Positions 34,518-45,149 of a DNA stretch of 64,000 bases are shown here, piece after piece (within the stretch, counting starts at the first letter, position 1; each line of letters begins with the position of its first letter). The translations under genes and the position numbers were made by a program. The stretch is from Verrucomicrobiota bacterium. GTDB taxonomy: Bacteria > Verrucomicrobiota > Verrucomicrobiia > Limisphaerales > JADLHS01. The notes below the pieces were generated by a model. It was not told the DNA's origin. It searched no databases and saw only the letters and a list, made by a program, of their open reading frames with translations. The DNA lies in NCBI GenBank assembly GCA_029573725.1, contig JAKQDQ010000178.1:248001-312000 (forward strand). The letters run 5' to 3'.

Positions 34518-35798
34518 ATGAGCAAAGCCAGGTTTTCCGATCGTCGCCTCGACAGCGCCTACCGGCTCGCCCGCGAACGTTATGCCGGGCTGGGTGTGAA
34601 CACCGACCAGGTGCTGCGACAACTCGTCAAAGTGCCGGTGTCGCTGCACTGCTGGCAGGGTGACGACGTGGGCGGATTTGAGAATTTCGGCGGGGCGTTG
34701 ACCGGCGGCATCCTGGCCACGGGCAATTATCCGGGCAAGGCGCGCACGCCGGAGGAGTTGCGGGCGGATGCCACCAAGGCACTCGCGCTGATTCCGGGCC
34801 GGCATCGGTTCAATTTGCACGCCAGCTACGGTGAATTCGGCGGCCGGAAGGTGGAGCGCAACGCCATTGAACCCCGTCATTTCCGCAACTGGATCGCGTG
34901 GGCCAGGTCCCTGGGCATCGGGCTGGACTTCAATCCCACCTGTTTCTCGCATCCCAAATCCGCCAGCGGTTTCACGCTCTCGCATCGTGACAAAGGCATT
35001 CGCCAGTTCTGGATCGAGCATTGCCAGCGCAGTCGCGAAATCGGGGCCGCCATGGGCCGCGCGCTGGGCACGCCGACCGTGACCAATGTCTGGATCCCCG
35101 ACGGCATGAAGGACACGCCGGCGGACCGCCGCGGTCCGCGCGAGCGGTTACAGGAATCACTGGATGCCGTGTTCAAAAAGCAGCTGAATCCCAAACACCA
35201 CCTGGATGCGGTCGAGGGCAAATTGTTCGGCATCGGCGCGGAGAGTTACACCGTGGGCATGCACGAGTTTTACCTCGGCTACGCGGTGCAACATCAGACA
35301 CTGGTCTGCCTGGATGCCGGGCACTACCACCCCACCGAAAACATGGCGGATAAAATTTCCTCGGTGCTGTGTTTTGTGCCGGAGATTTTGTTGCACGTCA
35401 GCCGCGGGGTGCGGTGGGACAGTGATCACGTGGTCACACTGACGGACGACTTGCAGGCCATCGCGCAGGAACTGGTGCGCGGCCATTACCTGCACCGCAC
35501 GCACATCGGCCTCGATTTCTTCGATGCCAGCATCAACCGGCTCGCCGCCTGGGTCATCGGGACGCGCAACATGCTGCGCGCGCTGTGCCTGGCCATGCTT
35601 GAACCCCATGCGCGTTACCAGCAACTGGAGCGCGCCGGCGATTACACGGCGCGCCTGGCATTGATGGAGGAGGCCAAGACCCTGCCCTTTGGCGCGGTCT
35701 GGGATTATTATTGCTGGCAACAGGGTGTGCCCGTGGGCGAAGCGTGGCTGGTCGAAGTGAAAAATTACGAGCGGGACGTGTTGAGCCGGCGCCTTTAA
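34518..35798 (+). CDS. rhaA: L-rhamnose isomerase
   Basis: Converts L-rhamnose to L-rhamnulose. 426 residues, the usual length, with many family strings: [116 protein letters not shown] and [13 protein letters not shown]. These contain the His, Asp and Glu residues that bind the two metal ions. The rhaB start is only 4 bp beyond the stop, so the two form an operon. No rhaD aldolase, transporter or AraC regulator is seen next to it. Confidence 0.95.
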
Positions 35799-35802
35799 GC
35801 TC

Positions 35803-37245
35803 ATGACCGGGAAGGTTTATTTGGCGGTGGATTTGGGCGCCGAAAGCGGCCGGGTCATCGCCGGGATTTGGAACGGCCGGCGGTTGCGGCTGGAGGAAGT
35901 GCATCGCTTCCCGAACGGCGGGGTGGTGCTGGGAGATTCGTTGCGCTGGGATCTGCTGCGGCTCTGGGCGGAAATTCAGACCGGCCTCGCGCTGGCGCAG
36001 CAGAAGCATGGGCGGCGGATCGTCTCGGTGGGGGCGGACACCTGGGGGGTGGATTTTGTTCTGCTCAACCGGCAGAACGAAATTTTGGGCCAACCCTATC
36101 ACTACCGCGACGCCCGCACGCGCGGGGCGTTGGCGCGGGCGTTCAAACAGGTGCCCCGCGCGGCGATTTTCGCGCAATCCGGCCTGCAATTTCTGGAGTT
36201 CAATTCGCTCTACCAGCTGCTGGCTTGGCAACGGCACGCGCCCGAACTGCTGGCCGCTGCCCAGACCCTGCTCTTCATCCCGGACTTTCTGCATTGGGCG
36301 CTGTGCGGCGTGAAACGCGCGGAATTCACCATCGCTTCGACCTCGCAATTTGTGCATCCGCGCCATCGCAGTTGGTCGCTGGCCTTGCTCAAGCAGTTCG
36401 GGCTGCCCGCGCATTTTCTGCCAAAAATCGTTCCGCCGGGCACGACGCTGGGACCGTTGCGAAAATCCCTGGCCGCGCCAACCGGCCTGGTGGGCGTGAA
36501 AGTTGTGGCGCCACCTTCGCACGATACCGCTTCGGCCGTGGCCGGCGTTCCCACGGCCCACACGGGAAAGGCCAACTGGGCCTACCTGAGTTCCGGCACG
36601 TGGTCGCTGCTGGGCGTGGAAGTGTCCGCGCCGGTGCTGTCCCGGCGGGCGCTGGAATTGAACCTGACCAATGAAGGCGGCATTGACGGCACATACCGGC
36701 TGCTGAAAAACATCATGGGTTTGTGGCTCGTTCAGCAATGCCGGCGCGCCCTTGCCGCCGGTGGAAAAAATTACAACTACGATCAACTCGCGGCACTGGC
36801 CGCCCAAGCGCGCCCCGGGCGCTCGCTTGTTGATGCGAATGACCCGCGCTTTCTGAATCCGCCGCACATGCCGCGCGCCATTCAGGATTTCTGCCGGGAA
36901 ACACGGCAGCCCCTGCCACGGAGCGCCGGGGAACTGGTGCGCTGCTGTTATGACAGCCTGGCGTTGAAATATCGCGAAACCCTGGCCGCGCTCGAGGAGC
37001 TCACCGCCACGCCCTGTGAAGTCATTCACATTGTTGGCGGCGGTTCGCAGAGTGAATTGTTGAACCAACTTACCGCTGACGCGTGCCAGCGACCGGTCGT
37101 GGCCGGACCAGTGGAGGCGACGGCGCTCGGCAACCTGCTTACGCAAGTCCGTGCCGATGGCGAACTCAGATCGCTGGCCGAAATGCGCGCCGTCGTGCGC
37201 GCTTCCAGTTCCGTAAGACAGTACGATCCGCGTCCGGCAAAGTAG
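35803..37245 (+). CDS. rhaB: L-rhamnulokinase
   Basis: FGGY-family sugar kinase phosphorylating L-rhamnulose. 480 residues. N-terminal YLAVDLGAESGRVIAG (phosphate-1 motif), IVSVGADTWGVDFVLL, PYHYRDARTRG, GLQFLEFNSLYQLLA, PSHDTASAVAGVP with SSGTWSLLGVE in the second lobe, and the IHIVGGGSQSELLNQLTADACQRPVVAGPVEATALGN adenosine-binding region. Order and spacing match RhaB rather than xylulokinase or glycerol kinase. It follows rhaA closely, so the window encodes the first two steps of rhamnose catabolism. Confidence 0.94.
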   Translation: MTGKVYLAVDLGAESGRVIAGIWNGRRLRLEEVHRFPNGGVVLGDSLRWDLLRLWAEIQTGLALAQQKHGRRIVSVGADTWGVDFVLLNRQNEILGQPYHYRDARTRGALARAFKQVPRAAIFAQSGLQFLEFNSLYQLLAWQRHAPELLAAAQTLLFIPDFLHWALCGVKRAEFTIASTSQFVHPRHRSWSLALLKQFGLPAHFLPKIVPPGTTLGPLRKSLAAPTGLVGVKVVAPPSHDTASAVAGVPTAHTGKANWAYLSSGTWSLLGVEVSAPVLSRRALELNLTNEGGIDGTYRLLKNIMGLWLVQQCRRALAAGGKNYNYDQLAALAAQARPGRSLVDANDPRFLNPPHMPRAIQDFCRETRQPLPRSAGELVRCCYDSLALKYRETLAALEELTATPCEVIHIVGGGSQSELLNQLTADACQRPVVAGPVEATALGNLLTQVRADGELRSLAEMRAVVRASSSVRQYDPRPAK

Positions 37246-37427: not shown

Positions 37428-37455
37428 TTGACAGGCTGCCAGGAGCTGATACTGT
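37428..37455 (+). promoter_or_regulatory. lexA promoter
   Basis: A perfect -35 TTGACA (37428-37433) and, after 16 bp, TACTGT (37450-37455) as -10, which is also part of the SOS box. Expected transcription start about 37462, leaving almost no leader before the ATG at 37469, so the mRNA may be near-leaderless. Confidence 0.7.
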
Positions 37456-37470
37456 TTAGACGAACAGTAT
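37449..37470. promoter_or_regulatory. LexA operator (SOS box) overlapping the lexA start codon
   Basis: Perfect inverted repeat ATACTGTT (37449-37456), 6-bp spacer, AACAGTAT (37463-37470). The core is TACTG-N10-CAGTA, the same as the E. coli SOS consensus. It covers the -10 box and the first two bases of the lexA ATG, so LexA binding should block both polymerase entry and initiation. Confidence 0.85.
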
Positions 37471-38092
37471 GATGAAGTTGACCGTGAAACAACAGCGCGT
37501 TCTGGATTTCATCCATAAATGCCAGCAAACGCAGGGCGTGACGCCGACGCACCAGGAAATCGCCGCGCATTTCGGCTTTCGCAGTCCAAACGCGGCGACG
37601 GAACACTTGCGTTTGATCCGGCGCAAAGGCTTCCTGGAATCCGTTCCCCGCAAGGCGCGCGCTCTGCGCGTCACGTCGGCGCTGCTGAAACTGCGGGGCC
37701 GGCTTGCGGACATTCCACTTTACGGAACGATTCCCGCCGGCTTTTCGGCCGATCGCGAGCAGCAACCGGATGGTTGCGTCACCGTGGACGTGGCCAGCAT
37801 CGGCTTCAAACCGACGCGCAACACATTTGCGCTTCGCGTTGCGGGTGATTCCATGATCGGCAGACATATTTGCGACGGTGACATTGCCGTATTTGAACAC
37901 GGTGCGGAGCCGCGCCCGGGGCAGATTGTGGCGGCGCTGATTGATCGCCAGAGCACCCTCAAAACTTTTGTCGTTAAAAATGGCCGACCGTTTCTGAAGG
38001 CTGAAAACCCGAAATATCCCGATCTGATTCCCTCGGAGGAACTGGTGATTCAAGGCGTGTTTCGCGCGTTGATCCGGCAGACAAACGAATGA
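37469..38092 (+). CDS. lexA: LexA repressor
   Basis: The SOS-response repressor, cleaving itself when RecA is activated. 207 residues: an N-terminal winged helix (TPTHQEIAAHFGFRSPNAATEHLRLIRRKGFLE, with the recognition helix around 36-50), the Ala90-Gly91 cleavage bond in TIPAGFSAD, Ser128 of the catalytic dyad in RVAGDSMIGRHI and Lys165 in STLKTFVVK. All residues needed for autocleavage are present. Its own operator lies at the start codon, indicating autoregulation. A second in-frame ATG at 37472 is possible. The fused polymerase gene follows after 54 bp without a visible terminator, so the two are probably one SOS-regulated transcript. Confidence 0.95.
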   Translation: MMKLTVKQQRVLDFIHKCQQTQGVTPTHQEIAAHFGFRSPNAATEHLRLIRRKGFLESVPRKARALRVTSALLKLRGRLADIPLYGTIPAGFSADREQQPDGCVTVDVASIGFKPTRNTFALRVAGDSMIGRHICDGDIAVFEHGAEPRPGQIVAALIDRQSTLKTFVVKNGRPFLKAENPKYPDLIPSEELVIQGVFRALIRQTNE

Positions 38093-38146: not shown

Positions 38147-41100
38147 ATGTCGTTTCCCCGCACCATTGTGCATCTGGATGCCGACGCTTTTTTCGCCGCC
38201 GTGGAGCAGGCGGCGGACGTCAAACTGCGCGGCAAGCCCGTGGCGGTGGGTGGCGGCGCGCGCGGCATCATCGCTTCAGCCTCCTATGAAGCCCGCCGGT
38301 GGGGGGTTTACACGCCCATGCCCGCCGCGCGCGCGCGCAAGCTTTGCCCGAAACTTATTGTGCTGCCGGGTGACTTCGAGCGCTACGAACAATTTTCGCA
38401 CTGGATGTTCGGTTACTGTTATGACTTCACGCCGGACGTGGAACAGACTTCGATTGACGAGGGTTACTTCGACCTGACGGGGCATCGCCGCCAGGCGCCG
38501 GTGGAAATTGCCCGGACCATCCGCAAGGCCATTGGCCAACGCCTCAAAATCACCGTCAGCGAGGGTATTGCCACGAACAAACTGGTCAGCGCCATCGCTT
38601 CCAAACTCCATAAACCCGGCGCGTTTCAAGTCGTTCCCCCGGGCGAGGAGGCGGTGTTTTTGCAACCACTGTCCAGTCAATGGTTGCCGGGCATCGGTCC
38701 CCAAACCGGGGCGCGTCTGTGTGCCGCCGGGCTGGCAACGATTGGCCAGGTTGCGGGCACGCCTTTGGAAATGTTGGAGTTGTTGCTGGGCGCGTCCGCG
38801 CGGTGCATCCGCCAGTTTGCGCACGGCATTGATGAACGTCCGCTTGTGCCGAAGCGTGATCCGCAAAAGACGTTCAGCCGGCAGGAGACGTTTGCCGCCG
38901 ACATCACGGACGAGGAATACGTCGAGGCGACGCTGCGCCACATGGCCGACCGGTTGTTTGCCCGGGTGCGGGAGGAAGGCCGCAGCATCCGCACCCTCAC
39001 GGTCAGGGTGCGTTACAACGACCGGGACGAAGATCAGGTGAGTGAGAGCCTGCGTGAACCGACGGATCTTGAAACAGACATCTACGGACGCCTGCGCATC
39101 ATGCTGCGGGCAGCCTGGCGGCGGCGGGTCAGTCTGCGGTTGGTGGCGCTCAAACTGGGCAATGTTTATGACGGTCGGTTTCGTGCCGAGCTGCCTCTGG
39201 AGGTTTCCGTTCAGCGACGCGAAGCAGCAGGCCGGCTGGCCGGGGCGATTGATGCGCTCCGGCGCGCGCGCGGATACGCAACCATTTTACGCGGACACGA
39301 TCTGCGTCTGCGCCTGCCGCCGCGGGCTCCGACGGCGCATCCGGCGGTGCCGGGCGAAGGCTCGCGGGGGATTCAAATCCTGTCCCGCCCGCGTCCGGTT
39401 GCCGGCTATGTTCCGCTGCGAACGCACAGCCACTACTCGTTCCTGGACTCGGTGTTGTCGCCTGCGGCCATTGTGCAACTGGCCCGGCAGCACGGTTTGC
39501 CGGCCGTGGCGCTGACGGATTCCGGCAATCTGCACGGTGCGGTGGAATTTGTGCAGGCCGCCAAACAACAGGGGGTGAAACCGGTTCTTGGTGTCGAGTT
39601 GAACGTGCGCGGCCAACCGCTGCTGCTCTACGTTGCATCGGCGCGCGGATATCATCAGCTTTGCCAACTGCTCTCGCACCCGGCGGCGGCGCCTCCCGGC
39701 CATGGAGAGGCGTCCGTGGTCAGCCAGCCGCGCCGGGCGTTGCGTTGCGAGGAACTGGCCGGGCGGACGGAGGGGTTGATCGCCGTCGGCAGCGATCCGG
39801 CCCTGGCTGAGTTGTTCCCGCAGCGTTTTTATCAGCTCGCCACCGGGGGACAGCGCGCCGGCAAATTTCCCGGCGTTGTCGGGCCCGCCATCCGGTACGC
39901 CATGCCCGGCGACCGGCAGCGATACGACATCGTGCAAAGCATTCGCACGCGGACGCTTTTGCGCCAGCCGCACCCTGAAAAAGATCTGGCCGGACAGTTT
40001 CATTTTCGCACTCCGGAGGAAATGGCCCGCGCCGCTTACGAGCATCCGGATTGGTTGCAGCATACGCATGAAATTGCCGCGCGTTGCCAGTTTGAGCTGC
40101 CTTTCGGCCAGCCGCAGTTCCCCGCCTACGTTCCTCCGGACGGGACCTCCCCGGGTGAATTTCTGCGACAACTGGTATGGCGGGGGTTGCGCGAACGTTA
40201 CGGCGCGCGCGCCGCTCGCCACCGTTCCCAGGCGCGGGAGGAACTCGACATCATCAACGCCATAGGGTACGCGGAATATTTCCTGGTTACCTGGGATTTG
40301 TTGCAGGCCTGCCGCCAACGCGGCATCTCCTGGATCACGCGGGGCAGCGCGGCGGACAGCCTGGTTTGCTACGGCCTGGGCATCAGCGGCGTTTGTCCGG
40401 TTCGTTTCAACCTCTACTTCCGCCGTTTTCTCAATCGTGAGCGCATGGCGCGGCACAAGCTGCCGGACATTGACATTGATTTTCCACACGACCAGAAGGA
40501 CGCCGTCATCAATCTCATCTTCGCCAAATACGGTCCGGCGCACTGTGCGGTGGTGGGCGGCTTTGCGACGTTTCAAGCCCGCAGCGCCTTTGCCGAGGTG
40601 GCCAAGGTGCTGGGGGTGGCGGAGCACATGGTGCGGCGGTTCACGGAGCATTTCCCGTGGAGTTTCCGTGGCTGTTGGAAATCGGACGTGGAAACGCCTG
40701 GTGGCGGGATGCGGTTGATTGACAAACTCGAAGCCAGCCCGGTGAACCGCTTCCTGCCGTTGCGCGATGAACCGTACCGCACCGCGCTGCTCATGGCCGG
40801 GGGGCTCGATGGCGTGCCGCGCCATCCCAAAATGCATCCCTGCGGCCTCGTTCTCTCGCGGCAGCCACTGCACGAACTGATGCCCACGTTCATGGCCCAG
40901 AAAGGTTACGCCACCACACACTTCGACATGGATGCCGTGGAGGCGGTCGGCCTGGTAAAAATGGACATTCTCGCGCAAGGCGGGCTGGCGGTGATGCGTG
41001 ATGTTCAGACGCTGCTGGCACCGCGCGGCCTGGTCGTGGATCTGGAAGCGTGCGTCGCACGGCGGCAATCCGATGGTTGTGTGCGGTGGGGCGACCCCCG

Positions 41101-42535
41101 GGCCGCCGAGCCGTGGCAGGATCCGCGCGTGTGGGCAATGATCGCCGCCGGCGACGCCCGCGCCGTGCATCATATCGAATCGCCCGCCATGATCGGGTTG
41201 TGCCGCAGGTGCAACGTGCGCGACATTGACGGGCTGGTGGCCATCGTCAGTGTGATCCGCCCCGGCGCGGCCAATGAAGGCAAAAAGCAATCGTTCGCCC
41301 GGCGTTATCAGGGATTGGAACCGATCACCTGCCCGCATCCGGATCTGGCATCCTGTCTGCGCAGCACCTTCGGCCTGGTCGTGTATGAGGAGCACATTCT
41401 GCAAATCTGCGAAATCTTTGCCGGACTGCCGCCGGGTCGGGGCGACGTTTTGCGGCGCGCCTTGAACAAACAGGACCCTGCCGTCATTGCCGGATTCCAA
41501 ACCGAATTCACCGCCGCCGCAAGGCAGCGTGGGCACACCCCGGAAACGATCGCGGAAGTCTGGCGTCTGATCACCGGGTTTGCCGGTTACGCCTTCTGCA
41601 AGGCGCACTCGGCCGCTTACGGCGTGGAAGCCTACCAGTCCGCCTGGTTGAAGCATTATTTCCCGGCGGAATTCATGGCCGCGGTGCTGACCAACGGCAA
41701 GGGTTTCTATGATCCATTGGTTTACGTTCTCGAATGCCACCGGCTGGGATTGAAATTTTTGCCGCCTTCCATCAATGAACCCGGTCCGATGTTTGCGGTG
41801 CATGGCCGCGCCATTCGTGTGCCGCTGGTTCGCGCGAAAGGGCTGACCGATCGCACCCGCCAGCGCCTGCTGGCCGAGCGCGCGCGCCGCGCCTTCGCCT
41901 CTTTGGCGGACTTTTGTCATCGTGTGCAACCGTTGCCGGAAGAATTGGAAACCATGATCCGCGCGGGCGGGTTCGATGAATTTGGCCAGCCCCGCACCCG
42001 GCAATTTTGGGAGGCACAACATTGGCGCCGGATCTGCAGCCGTTCGGATGTGTCGGACCAGGAATGGCTGTTGCCGCCCCCGGGCCTGGCACCATTTCCG
42101 GCAATGCCTTTGCGTGAACCGACCCGCCGGGAACGGCTTGAAAGTGAAAATGAATTGTTCGGCTATCCGGTCAGCGGCCATCCGCTGGAACGCTTCGCGG
42201 ACATTGCGTGGGAAACCTATTGTCCGGTGGCGCAATTACGGCAACACCCCGGCGCAACAGTCGTCGCTTGCGGATTGGTGATCGAGCAGCGCACCTACCA
42301 TCAGGTCACTGGTGAGCCCATGAAATTTCTTACCCTTGCCGACTGGACGGGCATGGTTGAGACCGAGCTGTTCGCGCCCGCCTATCGCCGCCATGGTCTG
42401 GCCACGGTTCGTTATCCGGTTCTCGAAGTCACGGCCGCCGTTGAGCCATTCGAAAACGGACGCGGCTTTTCATTGCGTGTGCTGCACGCCGGACCGCCCC
42501 GCCGCCGGCCGGACCGCGGCGCCGCGCGCCGGTGA
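38147..42535 (+). CDS. Fused DNA polymerase: Y-family DinB (Pol IV) plus C-family DnaE2/DnaE polymerase
   Basis: A single uninterrupted 1462-residue frame. Residues 1 to about 400 are a Y-family translesion polymerase: HLDADAFFAAVEQ (Asp11, Asp13), SYEARRWGVYTPMPAARARKLCP, the catalytic SIDEGYFDLTG (Asp104, Glu105), GIATNKLVSAIASKLHKP, a HhH (LPGIGPQTGARLCAAGL) and the little finger (FSRQETFAADI). After a short linker, residues 420-1462 are a C-family polymerase. It has a PHP domain opening THSHYSFLDS (427-435), GSAADSLVCYGLGIS, the catalytic PDIDIDF (Asp774, 776, 778), KMDILAQGG (Asp940) and a C-terminal OB fold. Both active sites look intact. Length and OB-fold position fit DnaE2. It follows lexA at 54 bp and should be SOS induced. 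Confidence 0.9.
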   Translation: MSFPRTIVHLDADAFFAAVEQAADVKLRGKPVAVGGGARGIIASASYEARRWGVYTPMPAARARKLCPKLIVLPGDFERYEQFSHWMFGYCYDFTPDVEQTSIDEGYFDLTGHRRQAPVEIARTIRKAIGQRLKITVSEGIATNKLVSAIASKLHKPGAFQVVPPGEEAVFLQPLSSQWLPGIGPQTGARLCAAGLATIGQVAGTPLEMLELLLGASARCIRQFAHGIDERPLVPKRDPQKTFSRQETFAADITDEEYVEATLRHMADRLFARVREEGRSIRTLTVRVRYNDRDEDQVSESLREPTDLETDIYGRLRIMLRAAWRRRVSLRLVALKLGNVYDGRFRAELPLEVSVQRREAAGRLAGAIDALRRARGYATILRGHDLRLRLPPRAPTAHPAVPGEGSRGIQILSRPRPVAGYVPLRTHSHYSFLDSVLSPAAIVQLARQHGLPAVALTDSGNLHGAVEFVQAAKQQGVKPVLGVELNVRGQPLLLYVASARGYHQLCQLLSHPAAAPPGHGEASVVSQPRRALRCEELAGRTEGLIAVGSDPALAELFPQRFYQLATGGQRAGKFPGVVGPAIRYAMPGDRQRYDIVQSIRTRTLLRQPHPEKDLAGQFHFRTPEEMARAAYEHPDWLQHTHEIAARCQFELPFGQPQFPAYVPPDGTSPGEFLRQLVWRGLRERYGARAARHRSQAREELDIINAIGYAEYFLVTWDLLQACRQRGISWITRGSAADSLVCYGLGISGVCPVRFNLYFRRFLNRERMARHKLPDIDIDFPHDQKDAVINLIFAKYGPAHCAVVGGFATFQARSAFAEVAKVLGVAEHMVRRFTEHFPWSFRGCWKSDVETPGGGMRLIDKLEASPVNRFLPLRDEPYRTALLMAGGLDGVPRHPKMHPCGLVLSRQPLHELMPTFMAQKGYATTHFDMDAVEAVGLVKMDILAQGGLAVMRDVQTLLAPRGLVVDLEACVARRQSDGCVRWGDPRAAEPWQDPRVWAMIAAGDARAVHHIESPAMIGLCRRCNVRDIDGLVAIVSVIRPGAANEGKKQSFARRYQGLEPITCPHPDLASCLRSTFGLVVYEEHILQICEIFAGLPPGRGDVLRRALNKQDPAVIAGFQTEFTAAARQRGHTPETIAEVWRLITGFAGYAFCKAHSAAYGVEAYQSAWLKHYFPAEFMAAVLTNGKGFYDPLVYVLECHRLGLKFLPPSINEPGPMFAVHGRAIRVPLVRAKGLTDRTRQRLLAERARRAFASLADFCHRVQPLPEELETMIRAGGFDEFGQPRTRQFWEAQHWRRICSRSDVSDQEWLLPPPGLAPFPAMPLREPTRRERLESENELFGYPVSGHPLERFADIAWETYCPVAQLRQHPGATVVACGLVIEQRTYHQVTGEPMKFLTLADWTGMVETELFAPAYRRHGLATVRYPVLEVTAAVEPFENGRGFSLRVLHAGPPRRRPDRGAARR

Positions 42536-44438: not shown

Positions 44439-45149
44439 TCAGGGATGGAAATAGCCCAGCTCCCGCAGCGAGGCATAATCCCTGGCCCGGCCGGCAGTGG
44501 CCCGGCCAAGAATGATGTGATCCAGTACTTCAATCTTCAGTAATTGTCCGGCCCGGATCAGGTCGCGGGTCACCTTGAGATCGGCCTCGCTGGGCGAGGG
44601 GTCGCCGCTCGGATGATTGTGTACGAGAACAATCGCGGCCGCATTGGCCGAGATGGCGGCACGAAACACCTCGCGCGCATGCACCAGCAGCGTATCCAGC
44701 GTGCCCTCGGAAACTTCTTCAAGCCGGATCAGCCGGCGCCGCGTGTTCAACAGCAGCACCTGCAATGTTTCCACCTCCTTGCCGAGATTTTGGGCGCGGA
44801 GCAGCTGCACGATGCTTTCGGGATTGTCCAGCACCGGAGATTCCATTTGGAGTTCCTGCGCCATTTTGTGCGCCAGCGCGAACGCGGCGACCAGGGTCAC
44901 GGCCTTGTCCCGGCCGACGCCTTTCGTCTGGCGCAACTGATCCACGGAGGCGGCGGCCAGCGCCTGGAGGGAGCTGAAACGTGCCAGCAACTGCTGGCCG
45001 ATCGCGACCGCGTTGTGGCCCTTGCAACCCGTGCGCAACAGAATCGCCACCAGCTCGGCATGGCTCAGGGCCGCGGCGCCGTGCGCCAGCAGCCGTTCGC
45101 GCGGCCGCTCGCCGGCCGGCTGATCTTTGATTTTGAGCGAGGTGGACAT
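44439..45149 (-). CDS. radC: RadC family protein (JAMM metalloprotease domain)
   Basis: 236 residues. N-terminal HhH-like region (RPRERLLAHGAAALSHAELVAILLRTG ... VGRDKAVTLVAAFALAHKM), then the C-terminal JAMM/MPN domain with HNHPSGDPSPSEAD (His177, His179, Asp190) and the Glu in LIRLEEVSEGTLD. Despite its name a role in repair is not established; the domain predicts a metal-dependent peptidase or isopeptidase. The gene is separated from the LigA-like fragment gene by a 174-bp divergent region. Confidence 0.93.
   Translation of the reverse strand: MSTSLKIKDQPAGERPRERLLAHGAAALSHAELVAILLRTGCKGHNAVAIGQQLLARFSSLQALAAASVDQLRQTKGVGRDKAVTLVAAFALAHKMAQELQMESPVLDNPESIVQLLRAQNLGKEVETLQVLLLNTRRRLIRLEEVSEGTLDTLLVHAREVFRAAISANAAAIVLVHNHPSGDPSPSEADLKVTRDLIRAGQLLKIEVLDHIILGRATAGRARDYASLRELGYFHP

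Follow-up and report, generated by a model that had tools for sequence, protein, structure and literature searches.

A Y-family polymerase and a DnaE2-like polymerase joined in one open reading frame behind lexA in the Limisphaerales

Can the two polymerases of a translesion mutasome be encoded as a single polypeptide, and could such a polypeptide work as one enzyme? The question is raised by an open frame in a 64,000-nucleotide stretch of DNA from a Verrucomicrobiota bacterium of the order Limisphaerales (contig JAKQDQ010000178.1 of assembly GCA_029573725.1, positions 248,001 to 312,000; hereafter the window). At window positions 38147-42535, on the forward strand, a single frame with an ATG start and no internal stops encodes 1462 amino acids (aa). 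A first-pass annotation of the window had read this product as a Y-family polymerase followed by a DnaE-type polymerase, and both the frame and the order of the Pfam domains bear this out. We refer to the gene and its product as the fusion, and to its parts as the Y half and the C half. The source genome is a 4.28-Mb draft in 187 contigs, 96% complete.

Six Pfam families matched the fusion above their gathering scores, in the order IMS, IMS_C, PHP, DNA_pol3_alpha, finger, and HHH_6, all on the forward strand. The Y-family polymerase domain IMS spans residues 10-153 (38174-38605) and contains D11, D13, D104, and E105; the Y-family C-terminal domain IMS_C, the little finger, spans residues 241-340 (38867-39166). 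The C half begins with a PHP domain at residues 424-547 (39416-39787). The C-family polymerase region follows at residues 672-943 (40160-40975), with the motif PDIDIDF at 773-779 and D940, then the finger domain at 989-1128 (41111-41530) and the helix-hairpin-helix domain HHH_6 at 1201-1284 (41747-41998). All of these catalytic residues are found where the first-pass annotation had placed them. In searches against PDB sequences, the Y half matched DNA polymerase IV (E = 3.8e-55), and the C half matched the Pol III alpha subunits of Thermus and E. coli (E = 2.1e-112). For the C-terminal OB fold that had also been annotated, no Pfam match was obtained in the fusion protein; its presumed position comes from the alignment with E. 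coli alpha together with the usual domain limits.

The fusion is a common form of the lexA-polY-dnaE2 cassette in the order, not a lone oddity. How often the two domains are fused had been put forward as a check, and the Y and C parts stand in one open frame in at least 75 of the 196 sampled genomes of the order, the source genome included, and in at least 33 of the 62 sampled families. The count of 75, one member of which (G171) rests on separate examination of its locus, is a lower bound, because it leaves out matches at the weak end and because contigs break in many of the drafts. Among 236 genomes of the class, six from outside the order (G211, G274, G296, G309, G352, and G364) have both halves in one frame. 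Of 288 genomes sampled across the phylum, only the source genome, G296, and G593 reached E = 1e-128, and G593 did so through the C half alone. No fusion was seen on plasmids, where 818 records matched and one covered at least 80% of the query, with its two genes in separate frames.

Nor is the fusion an assembly artefact. Full-length homologues from independent assemblies are collinear with it at 57-70% identity, and one of them comes from a genome that consists of one contig of 4.73 Mb (L141). The first-pass annotation would have given up the fusion for a stop or frameshift at the junction, or for halves that are always separate; these assemblies, the single contig among them, run through the junction in one frame.

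Two genomes carry two full-length fusions each, G095 (L025 and G095:C31) and G161 (L027 and G161:C70). A 1629-aa frame in G245 (L056) was considered as a second kind of fusion and rejected. Its DnaE2-like part starts at residue 605, and what resembles the Y family, weakly and at 24% identity, is encoded in a different frame, which points to an ImuB/DnaE2-like pair.

To assess conservation we aligned 48 fusions, which remained of 54 frames once six redundant ones were removed; three row pairs are still more than 90% identical. Among the rows that have letters at these positions, D11 and D13 are invariant in 46 of 46, D104 and E105 in 47 of 47, and D774, D776, D778, and D940 in 47 of 47. The corresponding D, D, D, and E are also kept in all eight separately encoded verrucomicrobial PolYs that we checked. 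The Y half thus retains its catalytic residues, as first annotated, unlike ImuB, the inactive Y-family homologue that is paired with DnaE2 according to PMC6511836. Both halves are under purifying selection: across eight pairs, the Y half gave dN/dS values of 0.06-0.21 and the C half 0.08-0.16, and the linker between them gave 0.14-0.64. Some dS values are near saturation, and the linker of the pair L018/L023 is no higher than its Y half. Judged from these residues, both halves look catalytically competent.

The first-pass annotation had called the C half DnaE2-like, and we retain this term on the strength of the C-family aspartates, a short C terminus, and features of the PHP domain; the score against the NCBIfam DnaE2 model NF004225 was 493.9 bits, below the cut-off of 939, and that against the DnaE1 model NF004226 was 620.5 bits, below the cut-off of 1002. 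The four presumed metal columns of the PHP domain read HHDH in none of the 48 fusions. These four columns were chosen from known PHP motifs, and the test covers four of the nine metal positions. The DnaE1 of the same genome reads H, E, D, and H at the four columns, so one column may be misplaced and the test leans on position 459, which is H in this DnaE1 and never H in the 48 fusions. The PHP metal site of the fusion is probably degenerate, as is reported for most DnaE2 proteins in PMC3919608 and PMC12926913. The alignment of the C half extends to residue 1065 of the 1160 of E. coli Pol III alpha; the chain ends near this point and has no C-terminal domain past the OB region, which is how DnaE2 is delimited in PMC3919608. 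The DnaE2-like half coexists in the source genome with the separate replicative DnaE1, a frame of 1214 aa that shares 34% identity with the C half. This genome also encodes a single DinB, which shares 36% identity with the Y half.

Between the little finger and the PHP domain lies a segment on which the first-pass annotation was silent (residues 360-388; 39224-39310, forward strand; consensus RRLAAVVDELRRARGRSVILRGHDFR). R372 and H384 are fixed in 48 of 48 fusions, and D369, G376, R382, G383, and D385 in 47 of 48. When the N terminus of the genome's own RecA was compared with the fusion profile, the best of all offsets fell at residue 360 (Z = 4.4), with p = 0.002 against shuffles in the tail. 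A motif resembling the RecA N terminus is described at this place in many Y-family proteins in PMC6511836, and the segment in the fusions is likely of the same kind. R-G-H-D of the segment is kept in seven of the eight separately encoded verrucomicrobial PolYs, the exception being G032; it is therefore more than a part of the tether. A conserved segment of this kind suggests control by RecA.

The linker that follows (residues 390-420; 39314-39406, forward strand) varies freely and measures 24-166 aa among the 48 rows, usually 25-37. A structure prediction for it had been proposed along with the first annotation; the linker falls within the lowest-confidence stretch of an AlphaFold model of residues 1-700 (seven sequences). 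An ATG preceded by a Shine-Dalgarno-like sequence occurs inside the linker in one of 48 fusions, and any start codon with such a sequence in six of 48; re-initiation inside the linker is unlikely on this count. Some genomes (L134, L135, L023, L140, L045, and others) have in-frame inserts of 21-112 aa, both within the linker and at other points of the polymerase. In the numbering of the window fusion they are placed after residues 402, 518, 689, 974, 989, 1216, 1219, and 1321, and some are repeat-like, e.g., SPSPQPSPAGRGG and PHPGPLPRGEGG.

A clamp contact shared by the two polymerases had been suggested. Our scan for clamp motifs covered the two usual positions, after the little finger and at the DnaE site. 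At the first, a QxxLF motif would put Q at 348 and either F or L at 352, a combination seen in none of the 48 fusions; the site reads ELPLE-like in the fusions, and several PolYs of separate operons carry QLTLF, QMDLF, QIDLF, or similar there. At the second, which aligns with QLDLF in the alpha chain of E. coli (5fku), 39 of the 46 rows with letters fit Q..[LF][LIFV], mostly as QGWL[LI]; the putative beta-clamp motif of the window fusion is QEWLL (42059-42073, forward strand). The fusion seems to keep one predicted clamp contact, in the DnaE half, and it is for this half that the suggestion finds backing.

The fusion, which had been annotated as part of an SOS operon, lies directly behind lexA. 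This gene (37469-38092, forward strand, 207 aa) scores 138.7 bits against TIGR00498, whose cut-off is 110.95, and ends 54 nucleotides (nt) upstream of the fusion on the same strand. Its cleavage site A90-G91 and the residues S128 and K165 are present in 39 of 39 LexA sequences. A -35-like element, TTGACA, lies at 37428-37433 (forward strand), and 37 of 42 loci have TTGAC ahead of lexA. A palindromic LexA-operator-like site, TACTGTTTAGACGAACAGTA, covers the -10 region at 37450-37469 and extends into the lexA start codon by one base. The site reads TACTGT-N8-ACAGTA and resembles the E. coli LexA box, CTGT-N8-ACAG (as given in PMC8565304). LexA is a same-strand neighbour in 31 of 31 fusion loci, which are the best matches and not a random sample, with 4-676 nt between the genes. 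With 11 further loci added, the count is 42 of 45 (the duplicates L142 of L031 and L081 of L037 are uncounted, and loci with short upstream sequence or cut frames are omitted).

The operator varies between genomes, stays palindromic, and covaries with the recognition helix of LexA. Palindromes with arms of at least six were found upstream of lexA in 39 of 42 loci, near-duplicates included, where 50 mononucleotide shuffles gave an expectation of 4.8. The arms comprise 33 distinct strings, a number that includes cases of one core at different lengths, and the operator differs even inside the genus of the source genome (L001, L010, and L019). Across 35 loci, operator distance correlated with the distance between LexA recognition helices (r = 0.40, p = 0.0002), and with the rest of LexA taken out the partial Mantel r was 0.37 (p = 0.0002), which removes relatedness only in part. 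The correlation peaked at 0.54 for LexA residues 31-43; other N-terminal windows gave 0.07-0.50, and the catalytic domain gave -0.24 to 0.23. The source genome has a single copy of the exact core, CTGTT-N6-AACAG. The count of looser sites covered the window and the surroundings of recA and dinB, and near those two genes it gave no CTGT-N8-ACAG. In this setting LexA may have essentially a single operon under its control.

Related systems with separate genes are found elsewhere. In candidate division B38 (L040) and GB_MAG SS3 (L042), lexA, polY, and dnaE are three consecutive genes. In both, polY and dnaE share a frame, and at their border, TAGGAAAAAAAGATG, a stop codon overlapping AGGA is followed by a start; in B38 a single TAG parts the two coding regions. 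Other genomes of the B38 phylum (L124, L125, L126, and L131) have lexA, polY, and dnaE in adjacent or overlapping frames, and in Persicobacter psychrovividus (Bacteroidota, L143) polY and dnaE are neighbouring separate genes. The verrucomicrobial C halves form one clade in a quick tree (SH-aLRT 100), as do the Y halves (support 100/100), where long rows in the Y-half tree (ImuB_G245 and Streptomyces) warn of false joins. In the C-half tree the fusion clade stands on its own long branch; the deep joins are short, several reference rows are long, and the tree gives no placement among the DnaE2 groups. The separately encoded C half of G052 groups deep within the fused clade, which indicates later separation, and that of G311 is sister to all other C halves. 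The fusion probably descends from a lexA-polY-dnaE2 operon by the joining of two neighbouring genes.

No published description of the fusion was found in a literature search for which supplements and most subscription papers were beyond reach. The first-pass annotation, too, was aware of no described example. This stands for the fused form; for Bacteroidetes, PMC6511836 and PMC12926913 already describe an active PolY that is paired with DnaE2B and encoded by a separate gene. The system resembles these PolY and DnaE2B (plus RecA) mutasomes made covalent. In common with the putative DnaE2B-PolY-RecA mutasome, the fusion has an intact PolY next to a DnaE2-type polymerase, and it has a candidate for the RecA-like docking segment. 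Neither system has ImuA or ImuB: in the source genome, at 96% completeness, profile searches returned two Y-family proteins (PF00817; the fusion and DinB), one LexA (PF01726), and for PF00154 one match, RecA itself, a search that a very divergent ImuA could escape. The fusion differs in being one polypeptide, in having lexA in its operon, in a PolY without QxxLF, and in C halves that form a clade of their own. We infer that the Persicobacter pair belongs to the published DnaE2B-PolY group.

The ImuA-ImuB-DnaE2 mutasome is likewise a LexA-linked cassette with a Y-family protein, a DnaE2-type partner, and a degenerate PHP domain. Unlike in that system, the Y half of the fusion is catalytically intact and covalently joined, and its linker, at the usual length, leaves little room for an ImuB-C domain. 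The Y half aligns to E. coli Pol IV (DinB), and RecA-dependent activation as proposed here recalls Pol V (UmuD'2C-RecA; PMC6511836); unlike in either enzyme, the Y half is joined to a C-family polymerase. The lexA-polY-dnaE operons of the B38 phylum (L040, L042, L124-L126, and L131) have the identical gene order, with the genes separate. Four of six PolYs beside dnaE in this phylum lack the catalytic residues (L123, L106, L125, and L131), which are kept in L093 and L126.

Taken together, we think it somewhat probable that the fusion is a covalent translesion mutasome, induced in the SOS response and acting as inserter and extender, a division of labour that the first-pass annotation had also suggested. 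After damage, RecA filaments would trigger self-cleavage of LexA, and the loss of LexA would free the palindrome over the -10 region of the lexA-polY::dnaE2 promoter, to go by the anatomy of this region. The product would be one chain in which two polymerase active sites are flexibly tethered. Insertion opposite the lesion would fall to the Y half, whose active site is DinB-like, and the DnaE2-like half, whose PHP proofreading site is apparently degenerate, would extend from the distorted terminus. The segment at 360-388 may dock on RecA and stand in for the missing ImuA, and QGWL[LI] of the DnaE half may grip the clamp. The fusion would in this way supplant the recruitment contact between PolY and DnaE2 and set a 1:1 ratio. 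We put forward more tentatively, as a possibility, the full picture of a single-chain polymerase with two active sites that is activated by docking on RecA and run by a near-one-operon LexA whose operator and recognition helix drift together.

Several observations weigh against the inserter-extender reading. The cassette is patchy, with at least 20 genomes of the same order giving no match at 1e-100. The halves are apart in G052, G071, and G311, and in G313 they are apart in tandem on one contig; G067 has a Y half with lexA, and no C half was found. In G182 (L069 and L068) the Y half is intact on one contig and the C half lies in several broken frames on another; lexA of this genome is split over two frames, so sequencing error is a possible alternative there to the loss of one polymerase. 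Such relatives indicate that the fusion is not indispensable. The missing catalytic residues in four of the six B38-phylum PolYs indicate that a scaffold-like PolY is common in related operons. The RecA-like match reached p = 0.08 when the whole protein was compared with 200 shuffles, and the B38 tail gave no score (-1) in the RecA profile fit, in which the Persicobacter tail did score (30). No neighbouring LexA was found at L045 or L134, and the one at L138 is encoded on the other strand. The AlphaFold model, at a mean pLDDT of 56.8, is too weak to orient the halves.

Two other explanations have to be considered alongside a covalent inserter-extender. Two independent polymerases might have been joined for equal amounts, with no hand-off between active sites. 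A linker that is conserved neither in sequence nor in length fits this, as does the existence of separate versions, and we consider it fairly unlikely in view of the fused form in 33 of 62 families. This spread suggests that the tether itself matters, a weak argument because the separate versions are only partly surveyed. Alternatively, the DnaE half alone might copy lesions, as in ImuB-DnaE2, the Y half serving as a RecA-binding tether whose site is unused for bypass. The inactive ImuB that pairs with DnaE2 (PMC6511836) and the four B38-phylum PolYs without catalytic residues are precedents for such a scaffold. We judge it unlikely; D11, D13, D104, and E105 do not vary among the fusions, all eight separate verrucomicrobial PolYs have them too, and G067 retains a Y half where no C half was found. 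It is highly improbable that the single frame is an artefact of assembly or annotation, or that internal initiation yields two proteins: contigs do end in or near the linker in G173 and G105, and the halves are on different contigs in some drafts, but one frame recurs in many independent assemblies and in the single-contig genome, and the linkers have no conserved internal start.

The fusion bears on a wider problem. Mutasomes of PolY and DnaE2 have been inferred mainly from gene neighbourhoods and models, and the roles of inserter and extender seem unsettled. With composition and ratio set by the fusion, a single protein is enough to put the two-polymerase model to the test. Versions that are fused, separate, or Y-only occur in the same class of bacteria and form a natural comparative series, and the variable operators of one operon are a natural data set on the joint change of a repressor and its DNA site.

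On the reverse strand opposite the fusion, a 982-aa frame at 39287-42235 was taken for a shadow frame in coding DNA. Immediately 5' of the lexA promoter, the window encodes an L-rhamnose isomerase and an FGGY-family kinase (34518-37245, forward strand). Downstream of the fusion, on the opposite strand, lies a radC-like gene with RadC JAB and UPF0758_N domains (44439-45149, reverse strand).

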